Shown here: in pieces, positions 6,489 to 23,157 of the stretch | Layout: each line of letters opens with the position of its first letter | Numbering within the stretch: the stretch's first letter is position 1 | DNA from: Spelaeicoccus albus | Lineage (GTDB): Bacteria > Actinomycetota > Actinomycetes > Actinomycetales > Brevibacteriaceae | NCBI RefSeq assembly: GCF_013409065.1 | Contig: NZ_JACBZP010000001.1 | Coordinates: 620,001 to 684,000 of the forward strand | Direction: 5' to 3' | DNA length: 64,000 bases | Translations under genes and position numbers: made by a program | Notes under the pieces: model-generated | What the model saw: only the letters and a program-made list of their open reading frames with translations | Database searches by the model: none | What the model was told of the DNA's origin: nothing

Positions 6489-7874
6489 CTACGAGTCGAA
6501 ACCGACCCCTACGGCATCGAGTGCGCGCAGCCACAATCCACGGCGTCCCTCGTTGGCGTCCGAGCGGATCATGGCCTTGGTCGTCAAGCCGATTCCGGCC
6601 CACGCCAACGGCTCGGGCGGGAAGGGCAGCGGCATCTTCTTCACCATGTCGAGTTCGGTGCGTTCGGTCGGCCGTCCGGAGAGCAGATCGAGCATCACGT
6701 TGGCGCCGAACCGAGTCGCGCCGACGCCGAGACCCGTGTACCCGGCCGAATACGCCACGCGGCCCCGATGCGCCGTCCGGAAGAACGAGAAGAACCGGCT
6801 ACACGTGTCCACTGCCCCGCCCCACTGGTGGGTAAACCGGAGCCCGGCCAGCTGCGGGAACGTCTCAAAGAAGTGCCGGGCCAGCTTGTCGAAGGTCTCG
6901 GGGCGCTGATCGTAGTCGGCGCGCAGCTGCCGCCCGTAATGGTAGATGGCGTCGAACCCGCCGAACAGGATCCGGTCGTCGGCGGTGCGCCGATAGTAAT
7001 GGAACCGGTTCGACACGTCGCCGATCCCCTGACGGCCGCGCCAGCCGATCGAGTCGAGCTGCTCCGGGCTCAGCGGCTCGGTCATCAGCGCGTAGTCGTA
7101 CACCGGTACGGTGTGCAGCCTGGTGCGGCGCAGCAGCGATGGAAACACGTTCGTGGCGAGCGCGGCGTGCTGCGCCGTGATCCGGCCCCGATCGGTCGCC
7201 AAAGTCAGCCCGCCGGCGTCCGACGTCAGCTTGCGCACGACAGTGGACTCGTAAATCTGCACGCCGAGTTCCCGGCACGCCGCGGCCAGGCCCCACACGA
7301 GCTTGGCCGGGTGCACGAGCGCCGTGCCGCGGGTGTCCCATAGGCCGGCCAGATAGGTGGGCGAATTCACCTCGGCACGCACCGAATCCCGGTCCAAGAA
7401 CACGGCGTCGTCACCGGCTTCGCTGCGCAGCCATTCGATTTCGTGCGGCCGGGTGGCGACGGCGAGCTCGCCGGTGCGCTCGAATTCGCAGTCGATGCCG
7501 TACCGGGCCACTGCCGATTCGAGTTCGTCGAGGTTTTCCAGGCCCAGCCGATTCAACGTGTCCAGCTCACCCGGAAAATGGTTTTGCCCGTTGGCCTCTC
7601 CGTGGGTCAGGCTCGCCGAGCAGAATCCGCCGTTGCGGCCGGACGCCGCCCAGCCCAGCTCGCGTCCTTCAACAAGCACCACTCGCCGGCCGGGATCGCG
7701 TTCCTTGGCCATGAGCGCCGTCCAGAGGCCGCAGTATCCGCCGCCGACCACTACCAAGTCGGTGTCGACGGTTCCCTCCAGCGCGGCAACGGAGTCCGGG
7801 CGCGCCGGGTCGTCCAACCAGAACGGCACGGGTTTGGCGCCGGCGAGGGCGGTGTGGATAGCGTCTGTGTTCAC
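6489..7874 (-). CDS. FAD-dependent amine oxidoreductase, DAO/PuuB-like
   Basis: A 461-residue flavoenzyme of the D-amino-acid oxidase/glycine oxidase superfamily. The nucleotide-binding motif VVVGGGYCGLW is at residues 41-51 and the second signature AASGRNGGF at 77-84; ASGRNGG is shared with PuuB-type gamma-glutamylputrescine oxidases. A GYTGLGVG segment near the C terminus closes the FAD site. Such enzymes oxidise an amine C-N bond to an aldehyde or imine with release of H2O2. Start: a GTG at 7874 overlapping the stop of the permease gene (GTGA); the longer frame upstream is out-of-frame permease DNA. It is the last gene of the amidohydrolase-transporter operon, so it probably acts on the imported compound. 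Confidence 0.85.
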   Translation of the reverse strand: MNTDAIHTALAGAKPVPFWLDDPARPDSVAALEGTVDTDLVVVGGGYCGLWTALMAKERDPGRRVVLVEGRELGWAASGRNGGFCSASLTHGEANGQNHFPGELDTLNRLGLENLDELESAVARYGIDCEFERTGELAVATRPHEIEWLRSEAGDDAVFLDRDSVRAEVNSPTYLAGLWDTRGTALVHPAKLVWGLAAACRELGVQIYESTVVRKLTSDAGGLTLATDRGRITAQHAALATNVFPSLLRRTRLHTVPVYDYALMTEPLSPEQLDSIGWRGRQGIGDVSNRFHYYRRTADDRILFGGFDAIYHYGRQLRADYDQRPETFDKLARHFFETFPQLAGLRFTHQWGGAVDTCSRFFSFFRTAHRGRVAYSAGYTGLGVGATRFGANVMLDLLSGRPTERTELDMVKKMPLPFPPEPLAWAGIGLTTKAMIRSDANEGRRGLWLRALDAVGVGFDS

Positions 7875-8782
7875 GACTCCCCTGTCATTGTCTTCACGAT
7901 GTCCGATGTGTTTTCGCCAACGCGGCGCAGCACGTACCCGACAACCGCCAGCGCAATGAGGGTCAGTACCAGCATGACCGTCGAGAGCGCCGCGACTTCG
8001 GGTCGGAGCGCCACGCGCACCTGCGAAAAGATGTAGACGGGCCATGGCGTGTACCCGGGCTGTTGCACGAAGCTCGACACGATGGTGTTGTCGAGGCTGA
8101 GCGTGAAGCCCATCAGCGCACCGGCCATGATGCCCGGCCCGGCCATCGGCAGCGTGATGTCCCGGAAACGGCGCCACGGAGTCGCGTACAGGTCGCCGGC
8201 CGCTTCTTCAAGGGACTCGTCGAGCCCGGCCATCCGCGCCCTGATGATGAAGGTGACGACCGCCATGGATTCGACGGTATGAGCGATGATCAGCCGTACG
8301 AGCCCGTTGTTCAACGGCGTGATGCCGTGGTCGACGCCGAGCGAGACGAACCAGGGCAACATGGCGATGGCGTCCACGATCTCCGGCGTGACAAGCGAAA
8401 TGGCCAGCAGCGCCGTGAGGCCGAGCGCCCACTTGGCGCCGTGTTTTGCCCTGGCCAGGGCGATCCCGCCGAGGGTGCCGAAGATCGTGGCCAGGATCGC
8501 CGTGCCGACTGCCGCCTTGAGCGAGGTCAGCACGGACGACTTCATGACGTCGTTGGTGAACGCGTGCACGTACGCCTGGAAGCCGAAGCTGTCCCAGGAC
8601 GCGAGCAGTCGGCCGTTGTTGAACGAATACACCACCACGACCAAGATCGGCAGGAACAAGAAGGCGAACATGATGACGCCCCACACCGTCAAGGCGATGT
8701 TTGCGCCGTCGCGCTTGCCGGCCGCGCCGTCCGTGTTGCCGGCCCGCGACGCCGTCGCCGTCCCGCGTTCATTGCCGCTCAT
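7871..8782 (-). CDS. Polyamine-type ABC permease (PotC-like), system 2
   Basis: A 303-residue membrane protein with a hydrophilic Gly/Ala/Arg-rich first 30 residues, six membrane segments and the coupling motif LEEAAGDLYATPWRRF. The FTLSLDNTIVSSF segment corresponds to the conserved helix near the C terminus of PotC proteins. The ATG at 8782 overlaps the stop of the partner permease by ATGA. It forms a heterodimer with the product of 8779-9723 as judged by order and family. The substrate may differ from system 1, because this operon also codes for an amidohydrolase and an oxidase. Confidence 0.9.
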   Translation of the reverse strand: MSGNERGTATASRAGNTDGAAGKRDGANIALTVWGVIMFAFLFLPILVVVVYSFNNGRLLASWDSFGFQAYVHAFTNDVMKSSVLTSLKAAVGTAILATIFGTLGGIALARAKHGAKWALGLTALLAISLVTPEIVDAIAMLPWFVSLGVDHGITPLNNGLVRLIIAHTVESMAVVTFIIRARMAGLDESLEEAAGDLYATPWRRFRDITLPMAGPGIMAGALMGFTLSLDNTIVSSFVQQPGYTPWPVYIFSQVRVALRPEVAALSTVMLVLTLIALAVVGYVLRRVGENTSDIVKTMTGES

Positions 8783-9723
8783 GCCGTGACCTCCGCTTCG
8801 GGACGTTCCGTAGCCGGCCGGCGCCCCGTCGCGCCGGCGGGTATATCGACGCGCAGATGCCATTTGATGAGCCGCTTGACGATGAGCACGATGACGCCGA
8901 CCACCACGACCGTGGCAAGTACGAACAGCATCAGGACGACGGCCATGGCCGCGCCGAGCGCCCAGTTCGCGCCGTCGTTGAATTGGCTTGCCACAAGGGT
9001 GCCCACCATGGTGCCGTGCGCGCCGCCCAGCACGGACGCCGTGATGTAGTCGCCCATGAGGGGCACGAAGATCAACAGGCAGCCGCTGGCGATGCCGGGG
9101 GCGGCCATCGGCAGCGTGACCTGCATGAAGGTCCGCCATCGCCCTGCGCCCAGGTCGCGGCTGGCTTCGCGCAGGTTCTTGCCGGCCCTGTCGATCGCCA
9201 CGAAGAGCGGCAGGATCATCAGCGGGAGATAGTTGTAGACGACGCCGATCTGCACGGCCGCGCGCGTGTACAGCACGTCGAACGGGCCGCCCAGACCAAT
9301 TGCCCCCACGGCCTGCGAGATGAATCCGGACGGCGACAGGATCACCTGCCAGCCGAGTGTGCGCACAAGAAAGTTTGTCCAAAACGGCACAAGGACGAGC
9401 GCCAGGAGAATGCTGCGCCGGCGCGGCGGAACCTTCACGGCGAGCCAGTAGGCGAACGGGACGCTGATAATCAGGCAGATGAGGGTGCCGATCACCGAGA
9501 TCCGCAGCGTGGCCAGGAACGTCGAAAGAAATGTCGAGCTGAGCGCTTCGCGGTAGCGGTCCAGGGAGAGCGTGTCCGTCGAATAGGTGGTGAATTCGTC
9601 CGGTTTGTAGCCAAAGCTGTACCAAATGACGAGCGCGACCGGGATCACGAAGAAGAACACCATGTACGCCCAGGTGGGGAACGACAGCCCACCGGGCCCG
9701 AAGAGTCGCTGACGGAGTTTCAT
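8779..9723 (-). CDS. Polyamine-type ABC permease (PotB-like), system 2
   Basis: A 314-residue permease, first of the pair. Hydrophobic segments begin at about residue 15 (WAYMVFFFVIPVALVIWYSF), and the coupling loop LREASRDLGAGRWRTF is near residue 190. The start at 9723 overlaps the stop of the binding-protein gene by four bases (ATGA), the same junction style as in operon 1. The C-terminal 30 residues after the last span are hydrophilic and rich in Arg, Ala and Glu, longer than in the system 1 counterpart. Confidence 0.9.
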   Translation of the reverse strand: MKLRQRLFGPGGLSFPTWAYMVFFFVIPVALVIWYSFGYKPDEFTTYSTDTLSLDRYREALSSTFLSTFLATLRISVIGTLICLIISVPFAYWLAVKVPPRRRSILLALVLVPFWTNFLVRTLGWQVILSPSGFISQAVGAIGLGGPFDVLYTRAAVQIGVVYNYLPLMILPLFVAIDRAGKNLREASRDLGAGRWRTFMQVTLPMAAPGIASGCLLIFVPLMGDYITASVLGGAHGTMVGTLVASQFNDGANWALGAAMAVVLMLFVLATVVVVGVIVLIVKRLIKWHLRVDIPAGATGRRPATERPEAEVTA

Positions 9724-10886
9724 GCGCCGCTCCTTGCCTTCGTCTTGTTCAATATCTCGTTCAGCCGTTCGGTGGCCGAGTTGATCTTGGACGGCGTGAG
9801 CCGCTTCATCACGTCGTCGGCCGGGAAGATCAGCTCGGTGTACTTGACCTTTTCGCGGCGGGCGCGTGCTTCGACGCCGCCGACTCCGGTGGCGTAGCCG
9901 ATGTATTGCATCTCGTTGAACGACACGTCCGGTTCGAGCATGTAATTGATGAACTCGTACGCGGCATCGGGGTGCTGGGTGCCGCGGGCGATTGCCCACG
10001 TGTCCATCCACAGATTCGCGGTCGGCGTCGGATACACGAACTTCCACTTGTCCGGATGTTTCGAGGCCATGATGGCTTGCCGGGCATCGCCGTTGTACGC
10101 GTGCAGCAACGTGAATCCGCCTTGCGAAACGGCGGAAGTCGCAGTCGACAGATACGCCTTGATATGCGGTGCGATCTTATTGACGAGGAATTTCTCGCAC
10201 GCATCGAGAACCGCGGTGTCCGTTGTGTTGGGGCTTTTCCCGTGTGCCGCCAGGTAGCAGCAGCACACTTCCCACGGGTCGGTCTGCAGCGCCGTCTTTC
10301 CGCTGGCTTCGTGCTGGACGGCGTCCAGAAAGTCCGACCACGACGTCAGATCCCGCTTGATGGCAGTGGTGTCGTACATGAAGCCCGTGGTGCCGGAGGC
10401 CTTGCAGATCGCGTACTCGCTGTCGGGGTCCCAGGTCTGGTGAATATAGGCCGGATCCATCGCTGAGAAATTCGGGATACGCGATTTGTCGAGTTTTTGC
10501 AGCAGCTTGTGTTCGGCCATCTCCGGCACGAAGAGTCCCGTCGGCACGACTATGTCGTATCCCGATGTGCCACGAGTGGCCGACAGTTTGGCAATCATCT
10601 CCTGGTTCGATCCGAAAGAGGCGATCTGCACGCTGGGGCCGTGTTTCTTCGTGAAGCGCTTGATATCGGCCGGATCGGAGTAATCGCCCCAGCTGTACAC
10701 GTTGAGCAGGTTCTCCGGCTTGCCGTCCGGTACGGCGGACGACGCCACTGCCGTTCCGGCCGAACAGCCGGCCAGACCGGCACCGGCCAGCACGCCGAAC
10801 CCGGCAAGCACGGCGCGTCGGCTGATGGTCCCGGCCTTGTCGCGGGGAGCCAAGATCCGCACCGGCTCGTCGTCGGCCCGGCTCAC
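9720..10886 (-). CDS. Polyamine-type substrate-binding lipoprotein (PotD-like), system 2
   Basis: A 388-residue exported binding protein. A twin-arginine motif (TISRRAVLAGF) precedes a hydrophobic run that ends in the lipobox LAGC, so Tat export and lipid anchoring are likely. The mature part begins with the typical NLLNVYSWGDYSDPADI pattern of polyamine-binding proteins. I place the start at the GTG at 10886, which overlaps the ATPase stop as GTGA; the longer upstream frame would run 90 bases into the ATPase gene. It shares the fold of the system 1 protein but is clearly divergent in sequence, so it may bind a different amine. Confidence 0.88.
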   Translation of the reverse strand: MSRADDEPVRILAPRDKAGTISRRAVLAGFGVLAGAGLAGCSAGTAVASSAVPDGKPENLLNVYSWGDYSDPADIKRFTKKHGPSVQIASFGSNQEMIAKLSATRGTSGYDIVVPTGLFVPEMAEHKLLQKLDKSRIPNFSAMDPAYIHQTWDPDSEYAICKASGTTGFMYDTTAIKRDLTSWSDFLDAVQHEASGKTALQTDPWEVCCCYLAAHGKSPNTTDTAVLDACEKFLVNKIAPHIKAYLSTATSAVSQGGFTLLHAYNGDARQAIMASKHPDKWKFVYPTPTANLWMDTWAIARGTQHPDAAYEFINYMLEPDVSFNEMQYIGYATGVGGVEARARREKVKYTELIFPADDVMKRLTPSKINSATERLNEILNKTKARSGA

Positions 10887-11977
10887 GGCTCGAACACCTG
10901 CATCTGCTCGGGCTGCCAGGAGCAGAAGACGGAATCGCCGGCGGCTACCCGTACCGATTCGGCGCGCGGTTTTCGGCACAGGATCTCGGTTTCGTCGTCG
11001 GCCACGACGACGTATTGGACGACGTCGCCCAAGAACGAGGTGCCGGCGACCCTGCCGGCCACGACATTCACGCTCGCATCCGGCCGCCGCGCGCTCAATG
11101 CGATCGATTCGGGCCGGACGGCGACCCGGACCCGCCCGTGGTGCCCGGCGGCCTGCGGGCCGCCCATCGGCCCGTGCGCCGACTCGAGACGGCCATCGGC
11201 TGCCACGGCATCGAAGAAGTTCTGCCGGCCGATGAATCCTGCCACGAACGCGTTGGCGGGGCGCGCGTAGATTTCTTCGGCCTCGCCGACCTGCTGGACG
11301 GCGCCGCCGCGCATGACGACGATCCTGTCGCTCATCGACAACGCTTCTTCCTGGTCGTGCGTGACGAAGATGAACGTCGTCCCGAGCTTCTTTTGCAGCA
11401 GTTTGAGTTCCAGCTGCATCTCGTCGCGTAATTTCCGGTCGAGGGCCGACATCGGCTCGTCGAGCAGCAGGACGTCGGGCCTGTTCACCAACGCGCGGGC
11501 CAAGCCGATCCGCTGGGCCTGGCCCCCGGAGAGCATACGGGTGTCGCGTGCGGCGAATGAACTCATTTGCACCATTTCGAGTGCTTCCCCCACGCGGGAG
11601 TTGATGTCACGGCGCGCCGTGCGTCGCTGACGCAGGCCGTAGGCGACGTTTTGCGCGACGCTCATGTGCGGGAAAAGCGCGTACGACTGGAAAACGGTGT
11701 TGATGGAGCGTTTGTGCGCCGGGACTGCGACGATTGATGCGCCGTCCAAACGGATATCGCCCCGGTCGGGGGTTTCGAAACCGGCGAGCATGCGCAGCAG
11801 CGTGGTCTTGCCGCATCCGGAGGGGCCGAGCAGCGAGAGGAATTCGCCGGCGCGGACGTCCAGGTCGATGCCGCCCACTGCGGTGACGGAGCCGTAGCGC
11901 TTCACGACCCGGCTGAGGGTGACGGCGCCGCTCGCCGCGTCGCGGGCGGGCCGCTGCTGGGTCAACGTGTCGGTCAT
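10883..11977 (-). CDS. Polyamine-type ABC transporter ATPase (PotA-like), system 2
   Basis: A 364-residue ATPase. Motifs: Walker A GPSGCGKTT, Q-loop VFQSYALFPHM, signature LSGGQAQRIGLARAL, Walker B VLLLDEPMSALD and switch histidine VTHDQEEAL. A C-terminal regulatory region with AVRPESIALS belongs to the TOBE-type domain. Alanine replaces the usual third glutamine in the signature, which is tolerated in the family. Two starts are possible: 11989 (MDAPMTDT) and 11977 (MTDTLTQQ); I list the shorter because the conserved domain begins later, at about residue 20. It lies about 30 bases after the amidohydrolase stop in the same operon. Confidence 0.88.
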   Translation of the reverse strand: MTDTLTQQRPARDAASGAVTLSRVVKRYGSVTAVGGIDLDVRAGEFLSLLGPSGCGKTTLLRMLAGFETPDRGDIRLDGASIVAVPAHKRSINTVFQSYALFPHMSVAQNVAYGLRQRRTARRDINSRVGEALEMVQMSSFAARDTRMLSGGQAQRIGLARALVNRPDVLLLDEPMSALDRKLRDEMQLELKLLQKKLGTTFIFVTHDQEEALSMSDRIVVMRGGAVQQVGEAEEIYARPANAFVAGFIGRQNFFDAVAADGRLESAHGPMGGPQAAGHHGRVRVAVRPESIALSARRPDASVNVVAGRVAGTSFLGDVVQYVVVADDETEILCRKPRAESVRVAAGDSVFCSWQPEQMQVFEP

Positions 11978-12007: not shown

Positions 12008-13648
12008 TTAGGCGGCAAAGACGATTTCGCCGCCGACCATTGTCATGTCGTTGCGCAGCGTGTGCAGGTCGGCCGGGTGCACGGTGAACGGGTCGGCCGA
12101 GGCGACTGCCAGGTCGGCCGGGGCTCCGGCTGCGACGGTTCCGGCATCGCTGCGGTTCAGCCGGGCGGAGCCGCGCGTGTATGCGGCGAGGGCCGTGGTA
12201 AGGTCGATCGATTGATCGGCGCCCAGCGGCTCGGCATCGGGATGGCCGGCTTCGCGCCGATTCACGGCGACGTGGACCGCCGCCCACGGGTCCGGCGTGG
12301 AGACGGGCCAATCGGATCCCATGGCCAGTCGTGCGCCGGAGCGCACCAGCGAGGCGAACGGGTATTGTCGGCCGGATCGTTCCGGGCCCAGGAACGGCAG
12401 CGTGAGATCGGTCATTTGCTTGTCCCCGGCCGCCCAGAGAGCTTGCGCGTTGGCTGTGACATCAAGCTGGGCAAAGCGCGGGACGTCGTGCGGGTCGATC
12501 ACTTGGATGTGCGCCAAATGGTGCCGCCGCCCGGTCGGGCCGTGTGCGCGACGGGCGTATTCGACGGCGTCCAGCCCGTAGTGGACCGCCCGGTCGCCGA
12601 TCGCGTGCATGTGCACGTCGAAGCCGCGGGCCTCCAGGGCCGCGACGGACAGGTTCAGTATTTCGGGCCGGAAGTAGCTGATCCCCTTGTTGGTACCGGC
12701 GCATCCGCAGGCGTCCAAGTACGGATCCTGCATGGCGGCCGTGAAGGTTTCGGCGACGCCGTCGAGCATGATTTTCACCGACGTCGTCCGGAAGCGTCCG
12801 CTGGAATTCTCGTTGCGGACCGCTGCGAACGCGTCTGCCTGATCCTCGATGTCACGTTCCGTGATGCCGCGGGGCCACCACAGCGCGCCGACGACGTCGG
12901 CCGTCAGTGTGCCGGCCCGTGCCGCGCTTTGGTAGACGGCTGTCGAATCCGATTGGCCGGCGTAGTCGCCGATGATGGCATCTTGCCAGCCGCGGATTCC
13001 AAGCGTTTGCAAATACTTCTGTGAGTTCATCAGCGCGGCGGCCTGGTCGGCTTCCGTGACTGCCGGGGCGTGAGCATCGACCAGTTGCATTGCCGCTTCG
13101 TGCAGGGTGCCGGCCGGGTTGCCGTGCACGTCCCGTTCGATCCGGCCTCCCTCCGGATCCGGAGTGGACGCATCGATGCCGGCAGTGCGCAGCGCTTCGG
13201 AGTTCACCCAGCTGCTGTGGTGATCGCAGTTGACCAAGACGGCCGGACGGGCGCCGATGGCGTCGATTCCGTCGAGAAGCTCCTTGGCGGGTGTTCCGTT
13301 CGGAAAATCGGCCATCGACCAGCCGCCGCCGACTATCCATCGGCCGTCGGATGCTGCGGCGAAGTCCGCCACGCGAGCCAATACGCCGTCCCGCCCCTTT
13401 GCGTCGGACACGTCGCATCCGAGGCGTTCGACGCCTGCCGAGACCGGGTGGATGTGGGCATCGGTGAACGCCGGGAGCAGCAGTTTGCCGCGCAGGTCGA
13501 CGAGCTGAGTAGCCGCGGTGCGCTCCGCTTCGGCGTCGGACCCCACGGCCGCGATGCGTCCGTCCGCGACAGCGACCGCCGGGGCGCCGTCGAGCAGTTG
13601 TTCGCCGTCGAAGACACGCCCCGAATGGAAGAGGTAGTCGGCGCCCAT
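12008..13648 (-). CDS. YtcJ-type metal-dependent amidohydrolase
   Basis: A 546-residue member of the amidohydrolase 3 family. The N-terminal beta-rich part (SGRVFDGEQLLDGAPAVAV) is followed by the metal-binding motif FTDAHIHPV near residue 65. HMHAIGDRAV is near residue 330 and an HLAHIQVIDP histidine cluster near 375, and the aspartate motif MGSDWPVSTPDPWAA near 450. Family members hydrolyse amide, N-formyl, urea or related C-N bonds; no substrate can be read from the sequence. The start ATG follows a clear AAAGGAGA ribosome site. It opens the operon whose next genes are the ABC importer and FAD oxidase, so it may free an amine from an imported acylated precursor. A TetR-type palindrome lies 80-98 bases upstream of the start. 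Confidence 0.87.
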   Translation of the reverse strand: MGADYLFHSGRVFDGEQLLDGAPAVAVADGRIAAVGSDAEAERTAATQLVDLRGKLLLPAFTDAHIHPVSAGVERLGCDVSDAKGRDGVLARVADFAAASDGRWIVGGGWSMADFPNGTPAKELLDGIDAIGARPAVLVNCDHHSSWVNSEALRTAGIDASTPDPEGGRIERDVHGNPAGTLHEAAMQLVDAHAPAVTEADQAAALMNSQKYLQTLGIRGWQDAIIGDYAGQSDSTAVYQSAARAGTLTADVVGALWWPRGITERDIEDQADAFAAVRNENSSGRFRTTSVKIMLDGVAETFTAAMQDPYLDACGCAGTNKGISYFRPEILNLSVAALEARGFDVHMHAIGDRAVHYGLDAVEYARRAHGPTGRRHHLAHIQVIDPHDVPRFAQLDVTANAQALWAAGDKQMTDLTLPFLGPERSGRQYPFASLVRSGARLAMGSDWPVSTPDPWAAVHVAVNRREAGHPDAEPLGADQSIDLTTALAAYTRGSARLNRSDAGTVAAGAPADLAVASADPFTVHPADLHTLRNDMTMVGGEIVFAA

Positions 13649-13727
13649 TGGTCTCCTTTGTCCGCGGGTGGCTCATCCACCGGAGTGGCTTACGTCACAA
13701 TGCTCAGAAAACCACGAACCGCACTCA

Positions 13728-13746
13728 TAGTCAACAGCGTTGACTA
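13728..13746 (-). promoter_or_regulatory. Putative TetR operator upstream of the amidohydrolase operon
   Basis: TAGTCAACAGCGTTGACTA: eight-base arms TAGTCAAC/GTTGACTA around a three-base centre. Its reverse complement matches the site at 15960-15978 in 18 of 19 positions. It lies in the 104-base gap between the TetR stop and the amidohydrolase start, where a repressor could block transcription of the amidohydrolase-transporter-oxidase operon. Confidence 0.72.
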
Positions 13747-13752
13747 CATTGT

Positions 13753-14427
13753 TTACTGCGAATTCGCCATTTGCTCCGCCGCGCGGGCCGAGATCGCGTC
13801 GATCGTCAGGTCGAGGGCGAGACCGAAGGTCGAGTCCTCGTCGATGGTTGCCAAATGGCGCGCCGATCGGGCGATGTTCGGAAAAGTCTTCGGATCTGCC
13901 GCCGCATACTCGGTGCTCCACGCCCCTTCGTCCTTGGCGCGCTGTTCGGCGTCGAGTATCCGGAACCCGGCGTCCAAACCGGCGAACGCCAGAGTCAGAT
14001 CATCCAGGACCCGATAGAGCCTTGCGGCTTCCTCGTCGTCGAATCCGGCGCTTGCCAAGGTACGCAAGATGATTTCGACGATGCGCATCTCGCCTTCGCG
14101 CCGCGTCACGCGGATCGTTCCGAGCACGGCGGCGTGCGGATGCGCCAGGTAAACGCGCCGCGTTCGCCATGCCAGATCCCGCAGCGTCTCCCGCCAGTCG
14201 TCGTACGGTTCGAAACCGTCGAGCCCTTGACCGATCAAATGGTCCATCAGCGCCAGGATCAGCTCGTCCTTGTTGCGAAAATGGCGGTAGATCGCCGTTG
14301 GATCGGCCCCCAGCTTGGCGCCGATCTTGCGGAACGTCAATCCGGCCGGACCCGCCTCGTCCAAGAGCGCCAAACACTCCGTGACGATACGGTCGGCGGT
14401 CAGGCTGCCGCGCGGATTCCGAGACAC
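13753..14427 (-). CDS. TetR-family transcriptional regulator
   Basis: A 224-residue regulator. The N-terminal helix-turn-helix is clear: ADRIVTECLALLDEAGPAGLTFRKIG, then LGADPTAIYRHFRNKDELI, the TetR recognition-helix pattern. The C-terminal ligand domain (residues 60-224) is all helical and rich in Ala, Leu and Arg. The GTG start is one base after the stop of the aldehyde dehydrogenase gene (TGAGGTG), so the two are cotranscribed and the regulator probably controls its own operon. Two matching palindromes, one before this operon and one just beyond its 3' end, are the likely binding sites. The ligand is likely an amine or aldehyde of the pathway; that is inference. Confidence 0.9.
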   Translation of the reverse strand: MSRNPRGSLTADRIVTECLALLDEAGPAGLTFRKIGAKLGADPTAIYRHFRNKDELILALMDHLIGQGLDGFEPYDDWRETLRDLAWRTRRVYLAHPHAAVLGTIRVTRREGEMRIVEIILRTLASAGFDDEEAARLYRVLDDLTLAFAGLDAGFRILDAEQRAKDEGAWSTEYAAADPKTFPNIARSARHLATIDEDSTFGLALDLTIDAISARAAEQMANSQ

Positions 14428-14428
14428 C

Positions 14429-15922
14429 TCAGTCTCTCCGTTCGGCCGACTCGGCCCGGAAGACCGTATGTTGCCACTCCTTGTCGGCTCGTCCGGTGGT
14501 TTCGATCATGACGTGTTTGACGTTCGTGTACTCCTCGAACGAATACGCCGACATGTCCTTGCCGAATCCGGACGCCTTGTAACCCCCGTGCGGCATTTCC
14601 GAGAGCATCGGAATGTGGTCGTTGATCCAGACGCAGCCGGCCTGGATTTCAGCGCTGGCACGCAGGCCGCGTCGCAAATCGTTCGTCCACGCCGACGCCG
14701 CCAGACCGTACGGCGTATCGTTCGCCAGCTCGAGCCCCTCATCGTCCGACTCGAACGGCAAAGCCACGAGCACGGGGCCGAACACCTCGTCCTGCACGAT
14801 TTCGGAGTCCTGAGCTGCGCCGGTGATCAGCGTTGGCGGATAGAATGCGCCGTCCACCCAGGCTCCCGCCGGAACCTCTCCCCCGGTCTCCACGCGTGCG
14901 CCGGCTTCCCGGGCCCGATCGACGAATCCGGCCACCCGGTCGCGATGGGCCGCGGAGATCAGCGAGCCGAGGTCGGTGGTCTCCGCAAGCGGATCTCCCA
15001 TCCGGACGCCGCGCATCAGCTCGGCCACGCGCTCCGCGAACGCATTGAACAGCGGGGCCTGCACATAGGCCCTGGTCGCGGCAGTACAGTCCTGGCCACC
15101 GTTGATGATCGATCCGGCGACGGCGCCGCGGGCAGCCGCCTCGACGTCGGCGTCGTCGAACACGACGAACGGGGCCTTGCCGCCGAGTTCCAGATGCACG
15201 CGCGCGCCGCGCCGACCGGCGATCTCCATGACGCGTCGACCCACTGCCGTCGATCCGGTGAACGAGCTCATGGCAACATCGGGATGGCCGACAAGCGCTT
15301 CACCGGCCTCCTTGCCGTCACCGGTGACGATGTTGACCACGCCGTCCGGAATTCCGGCCGCGGTAGCGGCCTCGGCAAAGATCAGCGACGTGCCCGGCGT
15401 CATTTCGGAGGGCTTGAGCACTATGGTGTTGCCGGCTGCGATGGCCGGAAGGATCTTCCAGGCGGCCATTTGCAGCGGATAGTTCCACGGTGCGATCGAA
15501 CCGATCACGCCGAGCGGTTCTCGGCGGACCATGGACGTGTGGTCGGCCGAGTATTCGGCCGCGGCGCGGCCTTCGAGGTTACGGGCCGCGCCGGCGAAGA
15601 ACTCGACATTGTCGATGCTGCCGGGCACGTCGAACTCACGGGACATCCGCAATGATTTACCGGTCTGCGCCGTCTCGACCTGCGCCATCTCCTCGGCGCG
15701 GCTCTCCAGTTCGGCAGCCAGTCGATGCAGCGCATCGGAGCGTTCGCCGGGTGTGAGCCGCGACCAGACCGGGAATGCGCGCTTGGCCGCCCGTACCGCG
15801 TCATCGACGTCGTCGGCAGTGGCAAGGACCAGCGTCTCGAGCTGCCGGCCCGTCGCGGGATTGACGAGAGGGAGAGTTGTTCCGTGGCCGGCCTGCCGGC
15901 GTCCGTCGATGTACTGGTGCAC
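14429..15922 (-). CDS. Aldehyde dehydrogenase, gamma-aminobutyraldehyde dehydrogenase-like
   Basis: A 497-residue NAD(P)+-dependent dehydrogenase. The cofactor pocket APWNYPL, the general-base motif HLELGGKAP (Glu about residue 245) and the nucleophile [10 protein letters not shown] (Cys about 279) are all intact, and the C terminus has the GYKASGFGKDMS and EEYTNVKHV pattern of aminobutyraldehyde/betaine aldehyde dehydrogenases. It would oxidise an aminoaldehyde to the amino acid. I use the GTG at 15922 because GGAGG sits at normal distance before it; the ATG four codons earlier (15934) has no such site. It is cotranscribed with tetR, and an operator-like palindrome lies 38-56 bases upstream of the start. 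Confidence 0.88.
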   Translation of the reverse strand: MHQYIDGRRQAGHGTTLPLVNPATGRQLETLVLATADDVDDAVRAAKRAFPVWSRLTPGERSDALHRLAAELESRAEEMAQVETAQTGKSLRMSREFDVPGSIDNVEFFAGAARNLEGRAAAEYSADHTSMVRREPLGVIGSIAPWNYPLQMAAWKILPAIAAGNTIVLKPSEMTPGTSLIFAEAATAAGIPDGVVNIVTGDGKEAGEALVGHPDVAMSSFTGSTAVGRRVMEIAGRRGARVHLELGGKAPFVVFDDADVEAAARGAVAGSIINGGQDCTAATRAYVQAPLFNAFAERVAELMRGVRMGDPLAETTDLGSLISAAHRDRVAGFVDRAREAGARVETGGEVPAGAWVDGAFYPPTLITGAAQDSEIVQDEVFGPVLVALPFESDDEGLELANDTPYGLAASAWTNDLRRGLRASAEIQAGCVWINDHIPMLSEMPHGGYKASGFGKDMSAYSFEEYTNVKHVMIETTGRADKEWQHTVFRAESAERRD

Positions 15923-15959
15923 AGTGTCCTCCATGGTGGCGTTGCTTGATCTTCCCAGA

Positions 15960-15978
15960 TAGTCAACGCTGTTGACAA
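15960..15978 (-). promoter_or_regulatory. Putative TetR operator upstream of the aldehyde dehydrogenase-tetR operon
   Basis: TAGTCAACGCTGTTGACAA, a near-perfect palindrome that differs from the reverse complement of the site at 13728-13746 at one position. It fills much of the 63-base gap between the FAD oxidase stop and the dehydrogenase start. Read on the minus strand it carries TTGACT and could overlap a promoter. Position and duplication support autoregulation by the TetR gene two cistrons downstream. Confidence 0.72.
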
Positions 15979-15985
15979 CAGGAAT

Positions 15986-17356
15986 TCAGGCTTTTCCGGA
16001 GACGCGATCGGCAACGCGGGCAAAGCGCGAGGTCCGGGTGCTGCCCATCTCTTCGGCCTTGTCGGCGCGGTAATACGCGGAATACAAGGCGTTGACGGCT
16101 ACCCACCGCAGCGGCTCGATTTCCCACCGGCGCACGCGTCGATCGACCCACGGCAGCCCGGCGATTTCGGTATCGCGGCCGAGAATGAGGTCCCGAAGCG
16201 TGCGTCCGGCCAAATTGGTCGCGGTGACGCCGGTGCCGACATAGCCGCCTGCCCATCCCAGACCGGTGCGTCTTTCGAGCCCCACGGTTGCGGCCCAGTC
16301 TCGGGGGACGCCCAGCACACCCGACCATGCGTGGGCGATCGGCACGTCGGCCGCGGCGGGGAAGAACCGGTGGAGCAAGCCGGCCAGCATGTCGATAGTC
16401 GCCTGCGGGGTGTGCCCGTCGACGTCCGTGCGCGAGCCGTACAGGTACGGCTTTCCGCGTCCGCCGAACGCGATTCGGTCGTCGGCGGTGCGCTGGGCGT
16501 ACATATAGGCGTGCGCCGCATCGCCCAGGGTCTCGCGGCCTTCCCAGCCGATCTCGTTCCAGAGGTCCGGCGGCAGCGGCTCGGTTGCGATCATTGACGA
16601 GTTCATGGGCAACCAGTCGCGGTGGCTGCCTTTCAGCCCGGCCGTGAACCCTTCGGTGGCGCGGACGATGTACTGGGCCTCGACCGTCCCCGCGTCGGTG
16701 ATGGCCTGCCGGGGGCGGATCCGACGCACCGGCGTGTTCTCGTAAATCGGCACGCCCAGGCGGTCGACCTCGGCGGCCAATGCGCGCACCAGCTTTCCCG
16801 GATTGATCCGTGCGCAGTGCGGATGCCACATTCCGCCGCGGACGCCGTGAACATTCACTCGGGCGCGCGTCTCATCGGCGTCGAGCCACCGGACGTCGGT
16901 CGATTGCCATCGCGCTTCATCGGCGTATTCGGCGCGGAGCCGCCCCAGCTGGGCTGCATTCGTGGCGACGCTCAGTTCGCCGCCCTTCACGGCGCCGATA
17001 CCGGTGCCGTCGGCGCCGCCGAAGGCGATCACCTGGTCGACCGAGTCGTTCATGGCTCGCTGAAACGCCTCGGCGGCTGCGGGCGAGTGCGACGCAGCGT
17101 AACGGGCCTTGCCGCCGGTGATGGCGTTACTCACCCAGCCGCCATTGCGGCCGGACGCCCCATAGCCGGCAAAACGGGCCTCGAGAACGACGACCTCGAG
17201 CGTCGGATCGCACTTTTTCAGGTAGTACGCAGTCCACAACCCGGTGAACCCGGCTCCGACGATCGCGACGTCCGCCTGCCGGGGATTCCGCAGTTGCGCT
17301 CGGGGCGCCGGCGCCCCGAGCCCGGTATGCCAAAAGGAAACGTCACCGTTGCGCAT
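15986..17356 (-). CDS. FAD-dependent oxidoreductase, DAO/PuuB-like (second copy)
   Basis: A 456-residue flavoprotein of the glycine/D-amino-acid oxidase group. FAD-binding motif AIVGAGFTGLW at residues 31-41, signature GASGRNGGW at 66-74, and the closing GGYVGTGVTATNLAGR about residues 375-390. It differs widely from the oxidase at 6489-7874, so a different amine substrate is likely. The ATG at 17356 overlaps the end of the universal stress gene by 14 bases. The gene stops just before the TetR-type operator, so it belongs to the upstream transcription unit rather than to the dehydrogenase-tetR unit. Alternative view: a sarcosine- or N-methyl amino acid-type oxidase of the same superfamily. 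Confidence 0.83.
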   Translation of the reverse strand: MRNGDVSFWHTGLGAPAPRAQLRNPRQADVAIVGAGFTGLWTAYYLKKCDPTLEVVVLEARFAGYGASGRNGGWVSNAITGGKARYAASHSPAAAEAFQRAMNDSVDQVIAFGGADGTGIGAVKGGELSVATNAAQLGRLRAEYADEARWQSTDVRWLDADETRARVNVHGVRGGMWHPHCARINPGKLVRALAAEVDRLGVPIYENTPVRRIRPRQAITDAGTVEAQYIVRATEGFTAGLKGSHRDWLPMNSSMIATEPLPPDLWNEIGWEGRETLGDAAHAYMYAQRTADDRIAFGGRGKPYLYGSRTDVDGHTPQATIDMLAGLLHRFFPAAADVPIAHAWSGVLGVPRDWAATVGLERRTGLGWAGGYVGTGVTATNLAGRTLRDLILGRDTEIAGLPWVDRRVRRWEIEPLRWVAVNALYSAYYRADKAEEMGSTRTSRFARVADRVSGKA

Positions 17357-18264: not shown

Positions 18265-19611
18265 TCAGTTGAGGAGGGCCGCCGCCGTGGCCCGACCCAT
18301 TCGGATCGCCCCGTCGACGTGTTGAAAGCCGCGTCCGGCGATATCGCTACACGAAAAGTACACGCGGCCGGCCGGGGCGCGCATATCGGCGCCGAACCGA
18401 GCGAGGCCACCCAGGTCGAAGCTTGCCGCGTACGCGCCGCGCGTCCATTCTTCGGCGGCCCAGTCGCTTTCGTAGTACACCGCCGGACGCCGTGCTGCGT
18501 CGCCGTACACGCGGGCAAGCGCGTCAAGGATCCGCTCGCGGCGTTCCGGCGGCGACAGCTTGAGCACGCCATCGGCGCGTTCGTCGGAGATGAATCCGAC
18601 AAGGGTGCCTCGGGTATCGCCGAAGTTCGTATTGTCGTAGGACTCGTGTACGAGGCCGTGCGGATCGAATGCCGTACCGGACAGGCCGGCGTCGCGCCAG
18701 AACGGGGTGTCGTAGACGGCGTGTACCTTGATCACGAGGCCCAGCGAGATGTGCTGGTGCAGTTGCATCTGACGCCGGGGCAACGGCGGCGAGAACGTGA
18801 TGCGCTGAATGAGGTTCGGCGGCACGGCCAGGACGACGTGCCCGGCGCGTACCTCGACGTTGCCGGCCGACACCGTGACTCTCGAGTCGTCGGTACGCAC
18901 GTCGAGCGCGGGCGAGTTCAGGAAGACATCGTCACCCAGTTTGTCGGCCAGCCGCAGCGGGACCTGCTGGAGTCCGCCCTTGACGCGTTTGTCCAAGATG
19001 AAGTCGGCATCGACCAGGTTCGAAAAGCCGCCGGCGCTGGCCGCCATCATCACGGCTTGCAGGAGCGAAAACGTGTGCGGCGGTTTGGTCAGCATGGCGG
19101 CACCGATGAACATGGCTATCACGTCGCGGGCATCGGCGTCGTCCGTTTGCGTCTCGAGCCATCCGGCGAACGAGACGGAGTCGTACTCGGCCGCCCTCGG
19201 GTTGGCCCACGGCTCTTCGGCGCCCACATCGGCGGCCAGCCTGTCCATGGCGGCAGTCAACGACTCGATCTCCGTGAGCGTGGTCTGCGGCAACGGCAGG
19301 TCCGCGCCGGTGAATTCGGTCCGGGTGCCGTCGCGACCGACGAAGATGTCGGCGCCGTCGCGGTATCGCGAATAGGTCTCCAGGCCGAGCTCGGCCAGCG
19401 TGCCGAGCAGCGCGTCCTGGTCCGGGGACACCCATTGGCCGCCGAGCTCGAGACTGGCGCCGTCGACGTCCCGCGTCCACAGGCGGCCGCCCACCCTGTC
19501 GCGCGCTTCGAGAACGGCAACCGACCGACCCGCCTTCGTCAGTTCGTGGGCGACGGTGAGCCCGGAGGCTCCGGCGCCGATGACGACGACGTCGCGTGAA
19601 ATGGTGTTCAT
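18265..19611 (-). CDS. puo: Flavin monoamine oxidase, putrescine oxidase-like
   Basis: A 448-residue flavin amine oxidase. It begins with the dinucleotide motif VVIGAGASGL (residues 9-18), followed by LEARDRVGGR (34-43) and ELGGQWVSP (55-63), and ends with the FAD-contacting GRGFQHVDGAIRMGRATA. These are hallmarks of the MAO/putrescine oxidase family, and the actinobacterial putrescine oxidases have this length. The expected reaction turns putrescine into 4-aminobutanal, ammonia and H2O2. Its start overlaps the stop of the PuuP-like permease gene by four bases. The permease partner supports putrescine, but tyramine or another amine cannot be excluded from sequence alone. Confidence 0.8.
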   Translation of the reverse strand: MNTISRDVVVIGAGASGLTVAHELTKAGRSVAVLEARDRVGGRLWTRDVDGASLELGGQWVSPDQDALLGTLAELGLETYSRYRDGADIFVGRDGTRTEFTGADLPLPQTTLTEIESLTAAMDRLAADVGAEEPWANPRAAEYDSVSFAGWLETQTDDADARDVIAMFIGAAMLTKPPHTFSLLQAVMMAASAGGFSNLVDADFILDKRVKGGLQQVPLRLADKLGDDVFLNSPALDVRTDDSRVTVSAGNVEVRAGHVVLAVPPNLIQRITFSPPLPRRQMQLHQHISLGLVIKVHAVYDTPFWRDAGLSGTAFDPHGLVHESYDNTNFGDTRGTLVGFISDERADGVLKLSPPERRERILDALARVYGDAARRPAVYYESDWAAEEWTRGAYAASFDLGGLARFGADMRAPAGRVYFSCSDIAGRGFQHVDGAIRMGRATAAALLN

Positions 19612-20954
19612 GATCTATCCGCTTCTTCGAAATCGAACGATTGGAGCTTCGTGCGGAACCCCTTCGTCAGCACGAGCATGTAGAGGAACCCGATGACGGT
19701 CCAGCTGATGCCGCCGATCAGCGCGTCGGCGTGCAAATTGACCCAGAGGATCCCCGTCATGCCGGCGCCGATGATCGGCAACACCAAATACGTGAAGAAG
19801 TCCCGCGGGGTCTTGTACCGCTTCTTGTGGACCACGAAGTACGCGATGACCGACAAATTGACGAACGTGAACGCGATCAGGGCACCGAAGTTGATGACCG
19901 ATGAAATCAATTCGAGCGTCATGCTGATGGCCAGCAACGACACGACGCCGACCAGGATCACGTTCAGCAGCGGGGTGCGGAATCGCGGATGCACGTAGCC
20001 GAAAAACTTACGCGGCAGCACTCCGTTGCGCCCCATCACGTACAGCAGCCTGGACACACTGGAGTGCGAGGCCAGCCCTGATGCAACGGTGGCGGCGAAG
20101 GCTCCGGCCACGAACACCAGTTGGAAGATCTTGCCGCCGACGTAGAGGCCGATCTCCGGCAGCGTGTCGTCGGTGTTGTGAAAGTGCGCGACGGTGGGAA
20201 ACAAGGCCTGTGCAAAATAGCCGGCCACGAAGAAGATGGCGCCGCCGATGAAGATGGTCAAAAGAATTGCCTTCGGCATCACACTGACGTGTTTGGCCTC
20301 TTCGGTGTACATCGTGACGGCATCGAAGCCGATGAACGAAAAGCACACGACGGTGGCGCCGGTCAATACGGCCCCGACCTGCACGCCCGCGTGGATCAGC
20401 GGATCCGTCGTCATGATCGTGCCGGCGCCCATACCGTTGGACAGTTGGATCGACCCGAACACGAGGAACGCCGCGATCAGCGTGATTTCAAACACCACCA
20501 GGATCGTGTTCAGCCGCGACGTGCCCTTCATGCTCCAGGCGTTGATGCCGGTGACGACCGCAACATACGACACGACCCATACCCAGGCCGGCACGCTCGG
20601 AAAGAGCGACACCATGTAGATGCGGATGATCAGCGCGTTCACCATGGGTAGGAGCAGATAGTCGAGCAGCGCAGCCCAGCCGACCATGAAACCGAGCCTC
20701 TTGCTCATGGTTTCGCGGGTGTAGGTATACGCGGATCCGGCGCTGGGGAAGACCTTCACCATCTTGCCGTAGCTCAGGCCCGTGAAGAGCATGACGACCA
20801 GCGCCACGAGGTAGGCCAGCGGCACGACGCCATCCGTCTGTTTCGACACGATGCCGAACGTGTCGAACACGACTGTCGGCGTCATATAGCCGAGTCCGAG
20901 CCCCACGATGGCCCAGAGGCCCAGGGATCGTTTCAGGCTGTTTTGGTCGGACAT
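19608..20954 (-). CDS. APC-superfamily amino acid/polyamine permease, PuuP-like
   Basis: A 448-residue integral membrane transporter with about twelve hydrophobic segments. The first span carries the APC-family motif LGLGYMTPTVVFDTFGIV, and the loop LSYGKMVKVFPSAGSAYTYTRE is the conserved stretch after the second span. The protein most resembles putrescine importers in the family, judged by this motif set and by the neighbouring oxidase. It would be a proton-driven importer of putrescine or another small amine. It is followed with ATGA overlap by the oxidase gene. A gap of 142 bases separates it from the dehydrogenase gene upstream and contains a hairpin at 21059-21088. Confidence 0.85.
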   Translation of the reverse strand: MSDQNSLKRSLGLWAIVGLGLGYMTPTVVFDTFGIVSKQTDGVVPLAYLVALVVMLFTGLSYGKMVKVFPSAGSAYTYTRETMSKRLGFMVGWAALLDYLLLPMVNALIIRIYMVSLFPSVPAWVWVVSYVAVVTGINAWSMKGTSRLNTILVVFEITLIAAFLVFGSIQLSNGMGAGTIMTTDPLIHAGVQVGAVLTGATVVCFSFIGFDAVTMYTEEAKHVSVMPKAILLTIFIGGAIFFVAGYFAQALFPTVAHFHNTDDTLPEIGLYVGGKIFQLVFVAGAFAATVASGLASHSSVSRLLYVMGRNGVLPRKFFGYVHPRFRTPLLNVILVGVVSLLAISMTLELISSVINFGALIAFTFVNLSVIAYFVVHKKRYKTPRDFFTYLVLPIIGAGMTGILWVNLHADALIGGISWTVIGFLYMLVLTKGFRTKLQSFDFEEADRS

Positions 20955-21058
20955 GGGTCAACTTCCGTTTTTGGCCGGGAGCTACCGCGGACGGCGCCGT
21001 GCGGCCATACGTACGGGACGTCGGGCCGGGCGCCGTGCGGGTGCGGGTCGGGCCCGGC

Positions 21059-21088
21059 CGGAACGGCCGGCGTCGGCCGGCCGTTCCG
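21059..21088 (-). terminator. Hairpin after the aldehyde dehydrogenase gene
   Basis: A perfect 12-base stem (CGGAACGGCCGG/CCGGCCGTTCCG) with a six-base loop, eight bases beyond the dehydrogenase stop on the minus strand. No T-run follows. It may reduce read-through into the permease-oxidase genes or stabilise the dehydrogenase message. The remaining 100 bases to 20955 are GC-rich and show nothing more I can name. Confidence 0.6.
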
Positions 21089-21096
21089 TCGGATCG

Positions 21097-22530
21097 TCAG
21101 GCTTCCAAATTGGTCATCACGTGTTTGATGCGCGTGTAGTCCTCGAATCCGTACATCGACAGATCCTTGCCGTAGCCGGAGTGCTTGAAGCCGCCGTGCG
21201 GCATTTCGGCGACGAGCGGGATATGGGTGTTGATCCATACGCAACCGAAGTCGAGCTTCTTGGCCAGGCGCATGGCCCGGCCGTGGTCTTTGGTCCATAT
21301 GCTGGAGGCCAGGCCGTACTCGACTCCGTTCGCCCAGCGCAACGCCTCGTCCTCGTCGGTGAATTTCTGCGCGGTGATGACGGGGCCGAAGATCTCGTTT
21401 TGAATTGCCTCGTCGTCCTGCAGAAGATCGGAGACGACCGTCGGCTCGTAGAAGTAACCGGGCCTGTCGACGGCGTGCCCACCGGCGCTCATGGTGGCGT
21501 GATCGGGCAGGGAATCCATCATGCCCTTGACCCGGTTGAACTGGTTGACGTTGTTGACCGGGCCGAACAGCACGTCGTCATCGGGCAGGCCCGGCTGGTT
21601 GGAAGCCGCCTGTTCGGACAGCGCATCCACCAGATCTTTGTAAATGCCCGGACCGGCAATGACGCGGGTGGCCGCGGTGCAGTCCTGACCGGCATTGAAG
21701 TAGCCGGCCTCGGCGATACCTGCGGCAGCGGCTTCGAGATCGGCGTCGTCGAAGACCATGACGGGAGCCTTCCCACCCAGTTCGAGGTGGACTCGTTTGA
21801 CGTCGCTGGCGGCGGTGCGCGCCACCTCCATGCCGGCACGAACCGATCCGGTGATCGACACCATGGCGGGAATCGGATGCTCGACAAGCGTTTGGCCGGT
21901 CTGCCGATCGCCGCACACGACATTGAAAACGCCCGGCGGGAAGAACTCGGCCGCGACCTCGGCCATCCACAGTGCGCTGACCGGCGTCGTGTCGGAGGGC
22001 TTGAGGACTACCGTGTTGCCGGCCGCGAGCGCGGGGATGAATTTCCATACCGCCATCATGAACGGATAGTTCCACGGTGCGACCTGACCAATGACGCCGA
22101 CCGGCTCGCGCCGGATCATCGATGTCATATTCGCCATGTATTCACCGGCTGCGCGGCCTTCCAGCACGCGTGCCGCGCCGGCGAAGAACCTGATCTGGTC
22201 GAGCGCCATCGGGATCTCTTCGCTGGCCACGAGGGTCTTCGGTTTGCCGCAGTTCTCGCTTTCGATGTCGATGAGTTCCTGCTGCCGGGCCTCCATGGCG
22301 TCGGCGAATTTCAGCAGCGCCATCTGCCTTTCGGCAGGCGTCGTGTCGCCCCACGTCTCAAACGCGGCGGCCGCGGCTTTGAAGGCCGCGTCGAGGTCGG
22401 CGGCGGATGAGACCGGTGCCGTGGCGTAGGCCTCGCCGGTGGACGGATTGACGATCTCGGCGGTTCGCCCGTCTGCCGAATCGGCATAGGTTCCATTGAC
22501 GAAATTGCGCAAGGCGCGCAGCTGACTCAT
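21097..22530 (-). CDS. Gamma-aminobutyraldehyde dehydrogenase-like aldehyde dehydrogenase
   Basis: A 477-residue NAD(P)+-dependent dehydrogenase. Cofactor pocket APWNYPF near residue 151, catalytic Glu in HLELGGKAP (about 250) and nucleophilic Cys in GQDCTAATR (about 284). The C-terminal [23 protein letters not shown] is typical of the aminobutyraldehyde/betaine aldehyde group. It would take 4-aminobutanal from the oxidase to GABA. The ATG at 22530 follows GGGAGA, which decides the start; an upstream in-frame extension of 59 residues reads into the shared promoter region. It is transcribed away from the lrp-aminotransferase pair. Confidence 0.9.
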
Positions 22531-22695
22531 GGGATCTCCCCAAACTGTGGTGGACGTCACGGTTGAGTGCAACCATACCCGGTCACCGATGATTTCGATA
22601 GTCTTCGACAAATATTCAACGAAATTCATTACACAATTGCCGTCGCTGGTGCTGAATTGGTTGCTATCGAGCGCAACGCGTCGTAGAGTCACTGT
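22531..22695. promoter_or_regulatory. Divergent control region between dehydrogenase and lrp genes
   Basis: A 165-base gap, markedly richer in A/T than the flanks, between two divergent genes. It holds GGTTGAGTGCAACC at 22561-22574 (arms GGTTG/CAACC) and several A/T-rich GAAATTC/GAATATT-like stretches, the kind of DNA that Lrp-family proteins bind. The Lrp-like protein encoded on the right probably acts here on both sides; that is inference from position. Confidence 0.5.
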
Positions 22696-23157
22696 ATGAA
22701 CGCGCATCCGGGCACCGTTGACGACCTTTCAAAGGCGATCATCGAACAGCTGCAGGAAGACGGTCGCCGCTCCTATGCGGCAGTCGGCAAGGCCGTCGGA
22801 TTGTCCGAGGCGGCCGTCCGTCAACGTGTCGCGCGTTTGGTCGAGAACGGCACCGTTCAGATAGTCGCCGTCACCGACCCCCTGCAGTTGGGCTTTGCCC
22901 GCCAGGCAATGATCGGCGTCACGGTGTCCGGCGACATCTCCGAGGTCTCCGATCAGCTCGCCGAATTGCCGGAGGTCGATTACGTGGTGATCACCGCGGG
23001 CTCCTTCGACATCCTGGCCGAGATCGTCTGCTCGGATGACGATGAACTCCTGCACGTCGTCAACGACCGCGTGCGAGCCATGCCCGGCGTCGTCAGCACC
23101 GAAACGTTCGTTTATTTATCGCTCCGTAAACAGCAATACAACTGGGGGACCAGATGA
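22696..23157 (+). CDS. Lrp/AsnC-family transcriptional regulator
   Basis: A 153-residue regulator. The N-terminal half has the Lrp helix-turn-helix ([38 protein letters not shown], residues 11-48 overall). The C-terminal half is the RAM ligand domain ([24 protein letters not shown]). Proteins of this type sense amino acids and control nearby catabolic genes. Its stop overlaps the start of the aminotransferase gene (ATGA), and it is divergent from the dehydrogenase gene, so it is a strong candidate for local control of the putrescine-to-GABA genes. The ligand may be GABA or another amino acid. Confidence 0.9.

Follow-up and report, generated by a model that had tools for sequence, protein, structure and literature searches.

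Paired palindromes as predicted operators of a TetR-family repressor beside amidohydrolase, transporter and oxidase genes of Spelaeicoccus albus

Two palindromes beside a tetR gene

We analysed a 64,000-nt stretch of the Spelaeicoccus albus genome (contig NZ_JACBZP010000001.1, positions 620,001 to 684,000; called the window below, with positions counted from its first nucleotide), in which two closely similar 19-bp palindromes lie next to a gene for a TetR-family regulator. Every gene of interest here is encoded on the minus strand. In the order of transcription, the locus consists of the FAD oxidase gene DAO1 (15986-17356), palindromic site 2, an aldehyde dehydrogenase gene (14429-15922), tetR (13753-14427, with a GTG start), palindromic site 1, an amidohydrolase gene (12008-13648), potA1 (10883-11977), potD1 (9720-10862), potB1 (8779-9723), potC1 (7871-8782) and DAO2 (6489-7874). 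A single base separates the tetR GTG from the dehydrogenase stop codon. For the dehydrogenase itself, a start at GTG 15922, with GGAGG ahead of it, is more likely than one at ATG 15934, which is also possible.

Profile searches place the dehydrogenase in the aminobutyraldehyde-dehydrogenase subfamily (NF010000, 706.8 bits, cut-off 615), the amidohydrolase in Amidohydro_3 (PF07969, 302 bits, gathering cut-off 29.7) and the potA1 product (start ATG 11977 or TTG 11989) among the polyamine-type ABC ATPases (TIGR01187, 386.1 bits, cut-off 355.6). The substrate-binding protein potD1, whose start is uncertain, was assigned from profile scores and an alignment, and the permease potB1 from profile scores. 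The potC1-like permease has counterparts of 71-73% identity at the same place in four related loci (L035-L037 and L121; see below), and DAO2 is a FAD-dependent oxidoreductase (PF01266, 189.2 bits for the longer open reading frame (ORF) scanned). The regulator consists of a TetR_N and a TetR_C_1 domain (PF00440, 41.0 bits, cut-off 24; PF02909, 55.2 bits, cut-off 21) and thus belongs to the TetR_C_1 type. It stayed below the cut-offs of the tetracycline-repressor model NF010319 (66.5 bits, cut-off 265) and of the model for the mycofactocin regulator MftR2, NF038211 (29.7 bits, cut-off 285).

Site 1 (13728-13746) reads TAGTCAACAGCGTTGACTA and is a perfect 8-3-8 palindrome with the arms TAGTCAAC-NNN-GTTGACTA. 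Site 2 (15960-15978) reads TAGTCAACGCTGTTGACAA, with one mismatch to the palindrome; when site 1 is reverse-complemented, the two share 18 of 19 positions. Direct reading of the sequence thereby bears out the coordinates, opposite orientation and degree of agreement given in a preliminary description of this DNA. Site 1 lies 6 bp 3′ of the tetR stop codon and 79 bp 5′ of the amidohydrolase ATG (13648). Site 2 occupies a gap of some 50-60 bp, 7 bp 3′ of the stop codon of the upstream FAD oxidase gene and 25 bp 5′ of the dehydrogenase ATG 15934.

Both sites are specific. Allowing up to three mismatches, they are the sole matches in the window (0.00 expected from 100 shuffles), as the preliminary description had stated, and they are also the only matches with at most two mismatches in the whole genome (one contig, 4,029,871 bp). 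At up to three mismatches the genome holds nine places, seven of them with three mismatches, compared with eight for a reversed-pattern control. The 15-bp core with one mismatch allowed occurs at 15 places genome-wide (control 11), with exact copies only at the two window sites. One of the three-mismatch places, G000:C1:560347, was inspected for its ORFs and set aside as background because the control count of such places is about equal. The genome search proposed earlier thus speaks for two specific sites and against a random scatter of the palindrome.

Recurrence, promoter position and helix variation

Relatives of the window TetR were sought in one genome per species from 84,980 species; 86 were found and the best 80 used. 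We counted a locus as motif-bearing if it held, within 2.5 kb, the full 19-mer with at most three mismatches or the 15-mer core with at most one. The recognition helix [DH]PT[AS]xYRHF occurs in 35 of these 80 loci, and 33 of the 35 carry the motif (300 shuffled half-sites: mean 0.26, maximum 9). When the helix-pattern loci were reduced to one representative per group below 70% identity, the motif was present at 8 of 9 (control mean 0.06, maximum 2). The two misses are L061, which has the looser site GACAATGGCATTGAC, and L067. Motif-bearing loci come from Arthrobacter, Streptomyces, Micromonospora, Microbacterium, Agromyces, part of Leucobacter, Galactobacter and one Pseudonocardia. In a search of 149 genomes, the 19-mer with at most one mismatch was found in five (G000, which is the window's own, G003, G027, G042 and G065), and in G003, G027 and G042 a copy adjoins a relative of the TetR gene.

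A second sample was not chosen by helix. Among 394 genomes of the class, 43 had a TetR match at E ≤ 1e-30, from which we took the best-scoring 29 new loci. By the original criterion, 14 of the 29 carry the motif (control mean 0.11, maximum 7). The remaining 15 comprise ten with an exact looser core, GNCAAY-NNN-RTTGNC, at most 330 bp upstream of tetR, two with one mismatch to it and three with none. Taken alone, the looser core within 330 bp upstream of tetR is present at 20 of 29 loci (mean 0.01 in shuffled DNA) and in a further set at 35 of 47 (shuffled mean 0.04). Permuted half-sites score 15 and 25 loci, respectively, as close variants of one word matching at the same places; among unrelated ones the best, AANGYC, scores 5 and 10. 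Loci missed by the looser core have largely other helices (HTAVLR, DPSALYRHV and the like), with L147, L159, L162, L164 and L201 missed despite ordinary ones. Two more missed loci, L219 and L226, share the helix HPTAIYRHF with the group around L042, in which the site lies about 1.9 kb upstream, before a gamma-glutamyltranspeptidase gene and beyond the 330 bp searched.

An unguided count of palindromic words in 60 of the 80 loci (L035-L094, the weakest 20 omitted) did not single out the motif: GTCAAC with gap 3 ranked eighth among perfect 6-g-6 words (10 loci), and TAGTCAA with gap 5 third among 7-g-7 words (21 loci). GC-rich coding words and kinship dominated this count, and composition-matched palindrome controls were used in its place. 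The search in relatives that the preliminary description had called for found the site recurring beside homologous TetR genes across actinobacteria.

The palindrome also occupies a predicted promoter position. Within site 1, TTGACT at 13729-13734 on the minus strand is a predicted -35 element, followed after 17 bp by the -10-like hexamer TTTTCT (13706-13711, minus strand). We compared this layout in 34 hand-chosen sites, some closely related to each other (e.g., L035 and L037), with window site 1 included and site 2 left out. Each was oriented toward its catabolic gene, except that L175, L180, L183, L185 and L187, for which that gene was not identified, were oriented away from tetR. Counted from the arm's TTGAC, the spacing to T[AT]NNNT is 17 in 11 sites and 18 in 20, together 31 of 34, and any other value from 3 to 45 occurs in at most one site; L038, L040 and L073 lack the hexamer at 17-18. 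In the opposite direction, two sites have it at 17 and three at 18, the largest count being five at spacing 6. The stricter TANNNT is confined to spacings of 17-18, where 15 of the 34 sites have it (shuffled control: mean 0.76, maximum 4). Judged by the sequences and predicted promoters, a conserved palindrome of operator type thus lies in promoter position beside a regulator gene.

Finally, the operator varies with the helix. We take the residue two before the conserved Tyr to be TetR position 40, as placed by alignment with TetR class A (5mru), and define pair 6 as the second base of each G-N-C-A-A-Y half, counted in helix-pattern loci with an exact looser site. Ala at position 40 occurs in 92 proteins, of which 45 gave no exact site within the short stretches searched; in the other 47, pair 6 is T/T in 35, T/A in 10, T/C in one and C/A in one. 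With Ser (17 proteins, five without an exact site), it is T/A in nine, T/T in two and T/C in one, and with Thr (26 proteins, four without an exact site) T/C in all 22. The base change is confined to one half-site. The covariation of base pair 6 with residue 40 is suggestive and confounded by kinship; it does not amount to independent proof, because the Thr sequences cluster and only one half-site changes. A 1988 report on the Tet repressor is said to describe a Thr40-to-Ala exchange after which AT replaces GC as the favoured base pair 6; this direction agrees with the pattern seen here.

Additional arrangements of the motif were seen in individual loci. L038, L039, L040 (5789-5863) and L209 have two operators that overlap at a 12-bp offset, as do L142, L143 and L201 with one mismatch, an arrangement pointing to two bound dimers spaced by roughly one helical turn. 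Five loci of the window's family (genus g2) have a second site with three mismatches about 5 kb from the first (L124, 13988; L125, 13908; L126, 14617; L127, 13945; L128, 4987), ahead of M20 and S9 peptidase genes and in L124 also of an alpha/beta hydrolase gene. A one-mismatch copy in L136 (9952-9970, corresponding to G003:C1:3605951-3605969) lies between genes of the MarR and carboxymuconolactone-decarboxylase families. Given these flanking genes, we discounted it as an additional target in G003; it is probably the site of another regulator.

Weighing the operator reading

Genome specificity, recurrence, the supply of a -35 element and helix covariation together make it very probable that the palindromes are TetR operators, as the preliminary description had proposed. 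The full reading, to which we assign a probability of roughly 0.82, is that both are operators of the adjacent TetR_C_1-type repressor and that site 1 serves to repress the amidohydrolase operon by occlusion of its -35 element. A TetR dimer would bind the two arms about their 3-nt spacer. The right arm of site 1 provides the predicted -35 (TTGACT) of the amidohydrolase-potA-potD-potB-potC-DAO2 promoter, from which the bound repressor would exclude RNA polymerase. Such steric repression is likely, since in 31 of the 34 hand-chosen sites a -10-like hexamer follows the operator's TTGAC at 17-18 bp. At site 2, just 5′ of the dehydrogenase and tetR genes, TetR would probably regulate its own synthesis. 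A small molecule tied to the imported substrate would then bind the C-terminal domain of TetR and release the DNA.

A number of observations weigh against this reading. One search peptide, YRHFRNKD, comes from the recognition helix, so that the 80-locus set was preselected for it. The motif is also found at 8 of the 45 loci with other helices, all of them similar (D[PA][ST]AxYRHF), and at 4 of 30 representatives of these, a number reached by 3 of 300 controls. Many Leucobacter loci have no site. The search at up to one mismatch missed G002, where the TetR shows 65% identity and the site ATGTCAACGCCGTTGACAT combines the exact core with different outer bases, as well as G011, G034, G059, G105 and G146, of which the first three hold sites with two to three mismatches. 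In G065, the one-mismatch site was not linked to a homologue, and a comparison of its region with the window proteins gave only a weak dehydrogenase match (27% identity). The looser core was adopted after the first results were known, as was the form T[AT]NNNT. The hexamer at 13706-13711 is weak on its own and was not listed by a plain sigma-70 scan, and at site 2 no -10-like hexamer was found at 16-18 bp in either direction. At 65% identity, the proteins counted for covariation form 18 clusters, with 21 of the 22 Thr sequences in one and the last in another. L035-L037, L120 and L121 have a single site 3′ of tetR and no core-type site in the 330 bp upstream of it; autoregulation via site 2 may therefore be special to the window's own genome.

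The strongest competitor, unlikely in our view yet well ahead of the other two, keeps site 1 as the sole working operator. Site 2 would be a remnant or a secondary site dating from a rearrangement by which the dehydrogenase gene came to lie before tetR, and oxidase, dehydrogenase and tetR would form one long transcript. The single site near tetR in L035-L037, L120 and L121 fits this scenario, as do the missing -10 register at site 2 and the position of that site in a gap of about 50-60 bp. Against it stands the 18/19 identity of site 2 to site 1, with none expected by chance, which would be hard to maintain in an unused sequence. It is very improbable that another regulator, e.g., the Lrp-type protein encoded at 22696-23157 or one encoded elsewhere, binds the palindromes with tetR a bystander. 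Further regulator genes do lie nearby, and the one-mismatch site of G003 adjoins a MarR gene; the motif, however, travels with the TetR subfamily across families and amid quite different neighbours, is absent from relatives with some other helices (e.g., HTAVLR and DPSALYRHV) and varies at base 6 with residue 40.

Least probable of all, and rejected by us, is that the palindromes act as RNA hairpins of a terminator or attenuator. Each could fold into a hairpin of 7-8 base pairs around a 3-nt loop, and site 1 was picked up as terminator-like by a plain scan, though on the plus strand. On the minus, i.e., coding, strand, no T run follows the palindromes; site 2 was not listed by the terminator scan. 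In relatives, moreover, the palindrome lies at the -35, upstream of the predicted start, and its sequence is conserved beyond mere pairing.

Extending the operator reading, one may tentatively, at somewhat less than even odds, regard the TetR subfamily as a reusable actinobacterial cassette. The code GTCAAC-NNN-GTTGAC, with one arm as the -35, would be largely fixed, base pair 6 would track position 40, and the import-and-cleavage module would have been swapped repeatedly: an amidohydrolase with Pot, APC, SBP_bac_5 or NCS1 transporters, a gamma-glutamyltranspeptidase with SBP_bac_3, or peptidases with SBP_bac_5. The tracking of pair 6 would reportedly have a parallel in the classic specificity change of the Tet repressor.

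Extent of the circuit, its modules and known systems

Site 1 probably heads a unit of six genes, from the amidohydrolase gene through potADBC to DAO2, a gene that also adjoins the operator in the relatives L120 and L121. Behind DAO2 lies a perfect 60-bp palindrome (6371-6430) resembling a terminator, and a copy with one mismatch in the 58-bp core lies at 1845-1902, behind an ORF (1958-2827) that is by position the last of a second pot set, which was identified from translations only. No further copy occurs in the genome when up to three mismatches to the 58-bp core are allowed. The two flank the second pot set in the manner of paired terminators, with no obvious T run after the first, and we infer that they mark the boundaries of transcription units and end transcription. 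Since they fence off the second pot set, the predicted circuit comprises 6 + 2 = 8 genes; the earlier count of at most 12 was too high. Site 2 precedes the two genes for the dehydrogenase and TetR. The idea that one circuit joins two operons holds, with a separate dehydrogenase-tetR operon only likely, because site 2 has no -35/-10 layout and sits in a short gap behind the oxidase gene.

We surveyed the modules around 92 TetR loci with wider context, the window excluded; this set is redundant, contains many Streptomyces and some short regions, and not all of its loci have the operator. An amidohydrolase (at least 45% identity) is the most frequent enzyme, present within 6.5 kb in 38 of the 92, where it is accompanied by pot genes (5), an APC permease (10), an SBP_bac_5 transporter (9), an NCS1 permease (2) or none of these (12). 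Gamma-glutamyltranspeptidase with an SBP_bac_3 protein occurs in 18, S9 and M20 peptidases in six and a class III aminotransferase in five, and 30 loci have neither amidohydrolase nor transpeptidase nor S9/M20 peptidases. Three genomes labelled Arthrobacter show the window's order tetR-site-amidohydrolase-potADBC, G002 has site-potADBC-DAO2 with no amidohydrolase and G003 the site with DAO2 only. By sequence, the recurring theme is an importer combined with an enzyme that breaks amide bonds.

Regarding the substrate, PotA, PotD and PotB score below the equivalog cut-offs (392.9/482, 141/582 and 206.2/348), with PotA passing the broader TIGR01187, and the dehydrogenase reaches 503.9 with the equivalog TIGR03374 (cut-off 909.3) while exceeding the subfamily model NF010000. 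In an alignment with PotD, the window binding protein retains a Glu and a Trp-Met-Asp, positions that we take to bind polyamine in PotD. The best-scoring solved structures for the amidohydrolase are uncharacterised hydrolases (3igh, 3icj). Its family, PF07969, includes N-substituted formamide deformylase, an amine-releasing enzyme, among its characterised members (PMC13081902); the likeness is at the family level. Our best guess is an N-acylated amine, because the importer appears to be of polyamine type, the binding-protein residues are kept and the dehydrogenase belongs to the aminobutyraldehyde subfamily. In the proposed pathway, a cationic amide or amine would be taken up by Pot, the amidohydrolase would free the amine, and DAO2 and the dehydrogenase would oxidise it. 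The operator alone does not identify the ligand, because the same operator stands beside pot, APC, SBP_bac_5, NCS1 and gamma-glutamyltranspeptidase/SBP_bac_3 modules. The name amine regulon given in the preliminary description is therefore plausible, with putrescine or acetylputrescine as one possible effector only, given that the transporters change across relatives.

Near the circuit, the region 18265-24542 encodes a flavin amine oxidase, an APC permease and an Lrp-type regulator by profile matches, and, according to translations, a second aldehyde dehydrogenase and an aminotransferase. It may serve further amine catabolism beyond the TetR circuit.

These results yield a binding-site consensus, a predicted mechanism of -35 occlusion and a predicted 8-gene regulon for this TetR subfamily. 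With this motif, regulons can be annotated in many actinobacteria; helices and operators that differ naturally between relatives lend themselves to testing a TetR recognition code, and the tie of an Amidohydro_3 enzyme to uptake and amine-oxidation genes narrows the search for its substrate.

Literature searches by regulator, sequence and enzyme, judged by the top-ranked titles, found no description of this TetR subfamily or its operator; as far as these searches reach, regulator and operator are undescribed, and the circuit is ordinary in kind. The best solved relatives of the window TetR by sequence are 2hxi (E 4.4e-23), an uncharacterised regulator with the similar recognition helix DSSSLYRHFRNK, and ActR (2opt, E 1.7e-17). 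Both likenesses are of protein sequence, and ActR belongs to an antibiotic pathway, a setting unlike that of the window TetR. Repressors tied to putrescine genes include PuuR of E. coli, which is outside the TetR family, and CgmR, which controls a putrescine exporter; here the likeness is one of description. The Tet repressor shares its protein family domains with the window TetR, whereas the tet operator has another sequence than the window palindrome, and the window TetR neighbours catabolic genes and no efflux pump. In the tet system, a palindromic operator overlaps the promoter, and in this respect it resembles window site 1.

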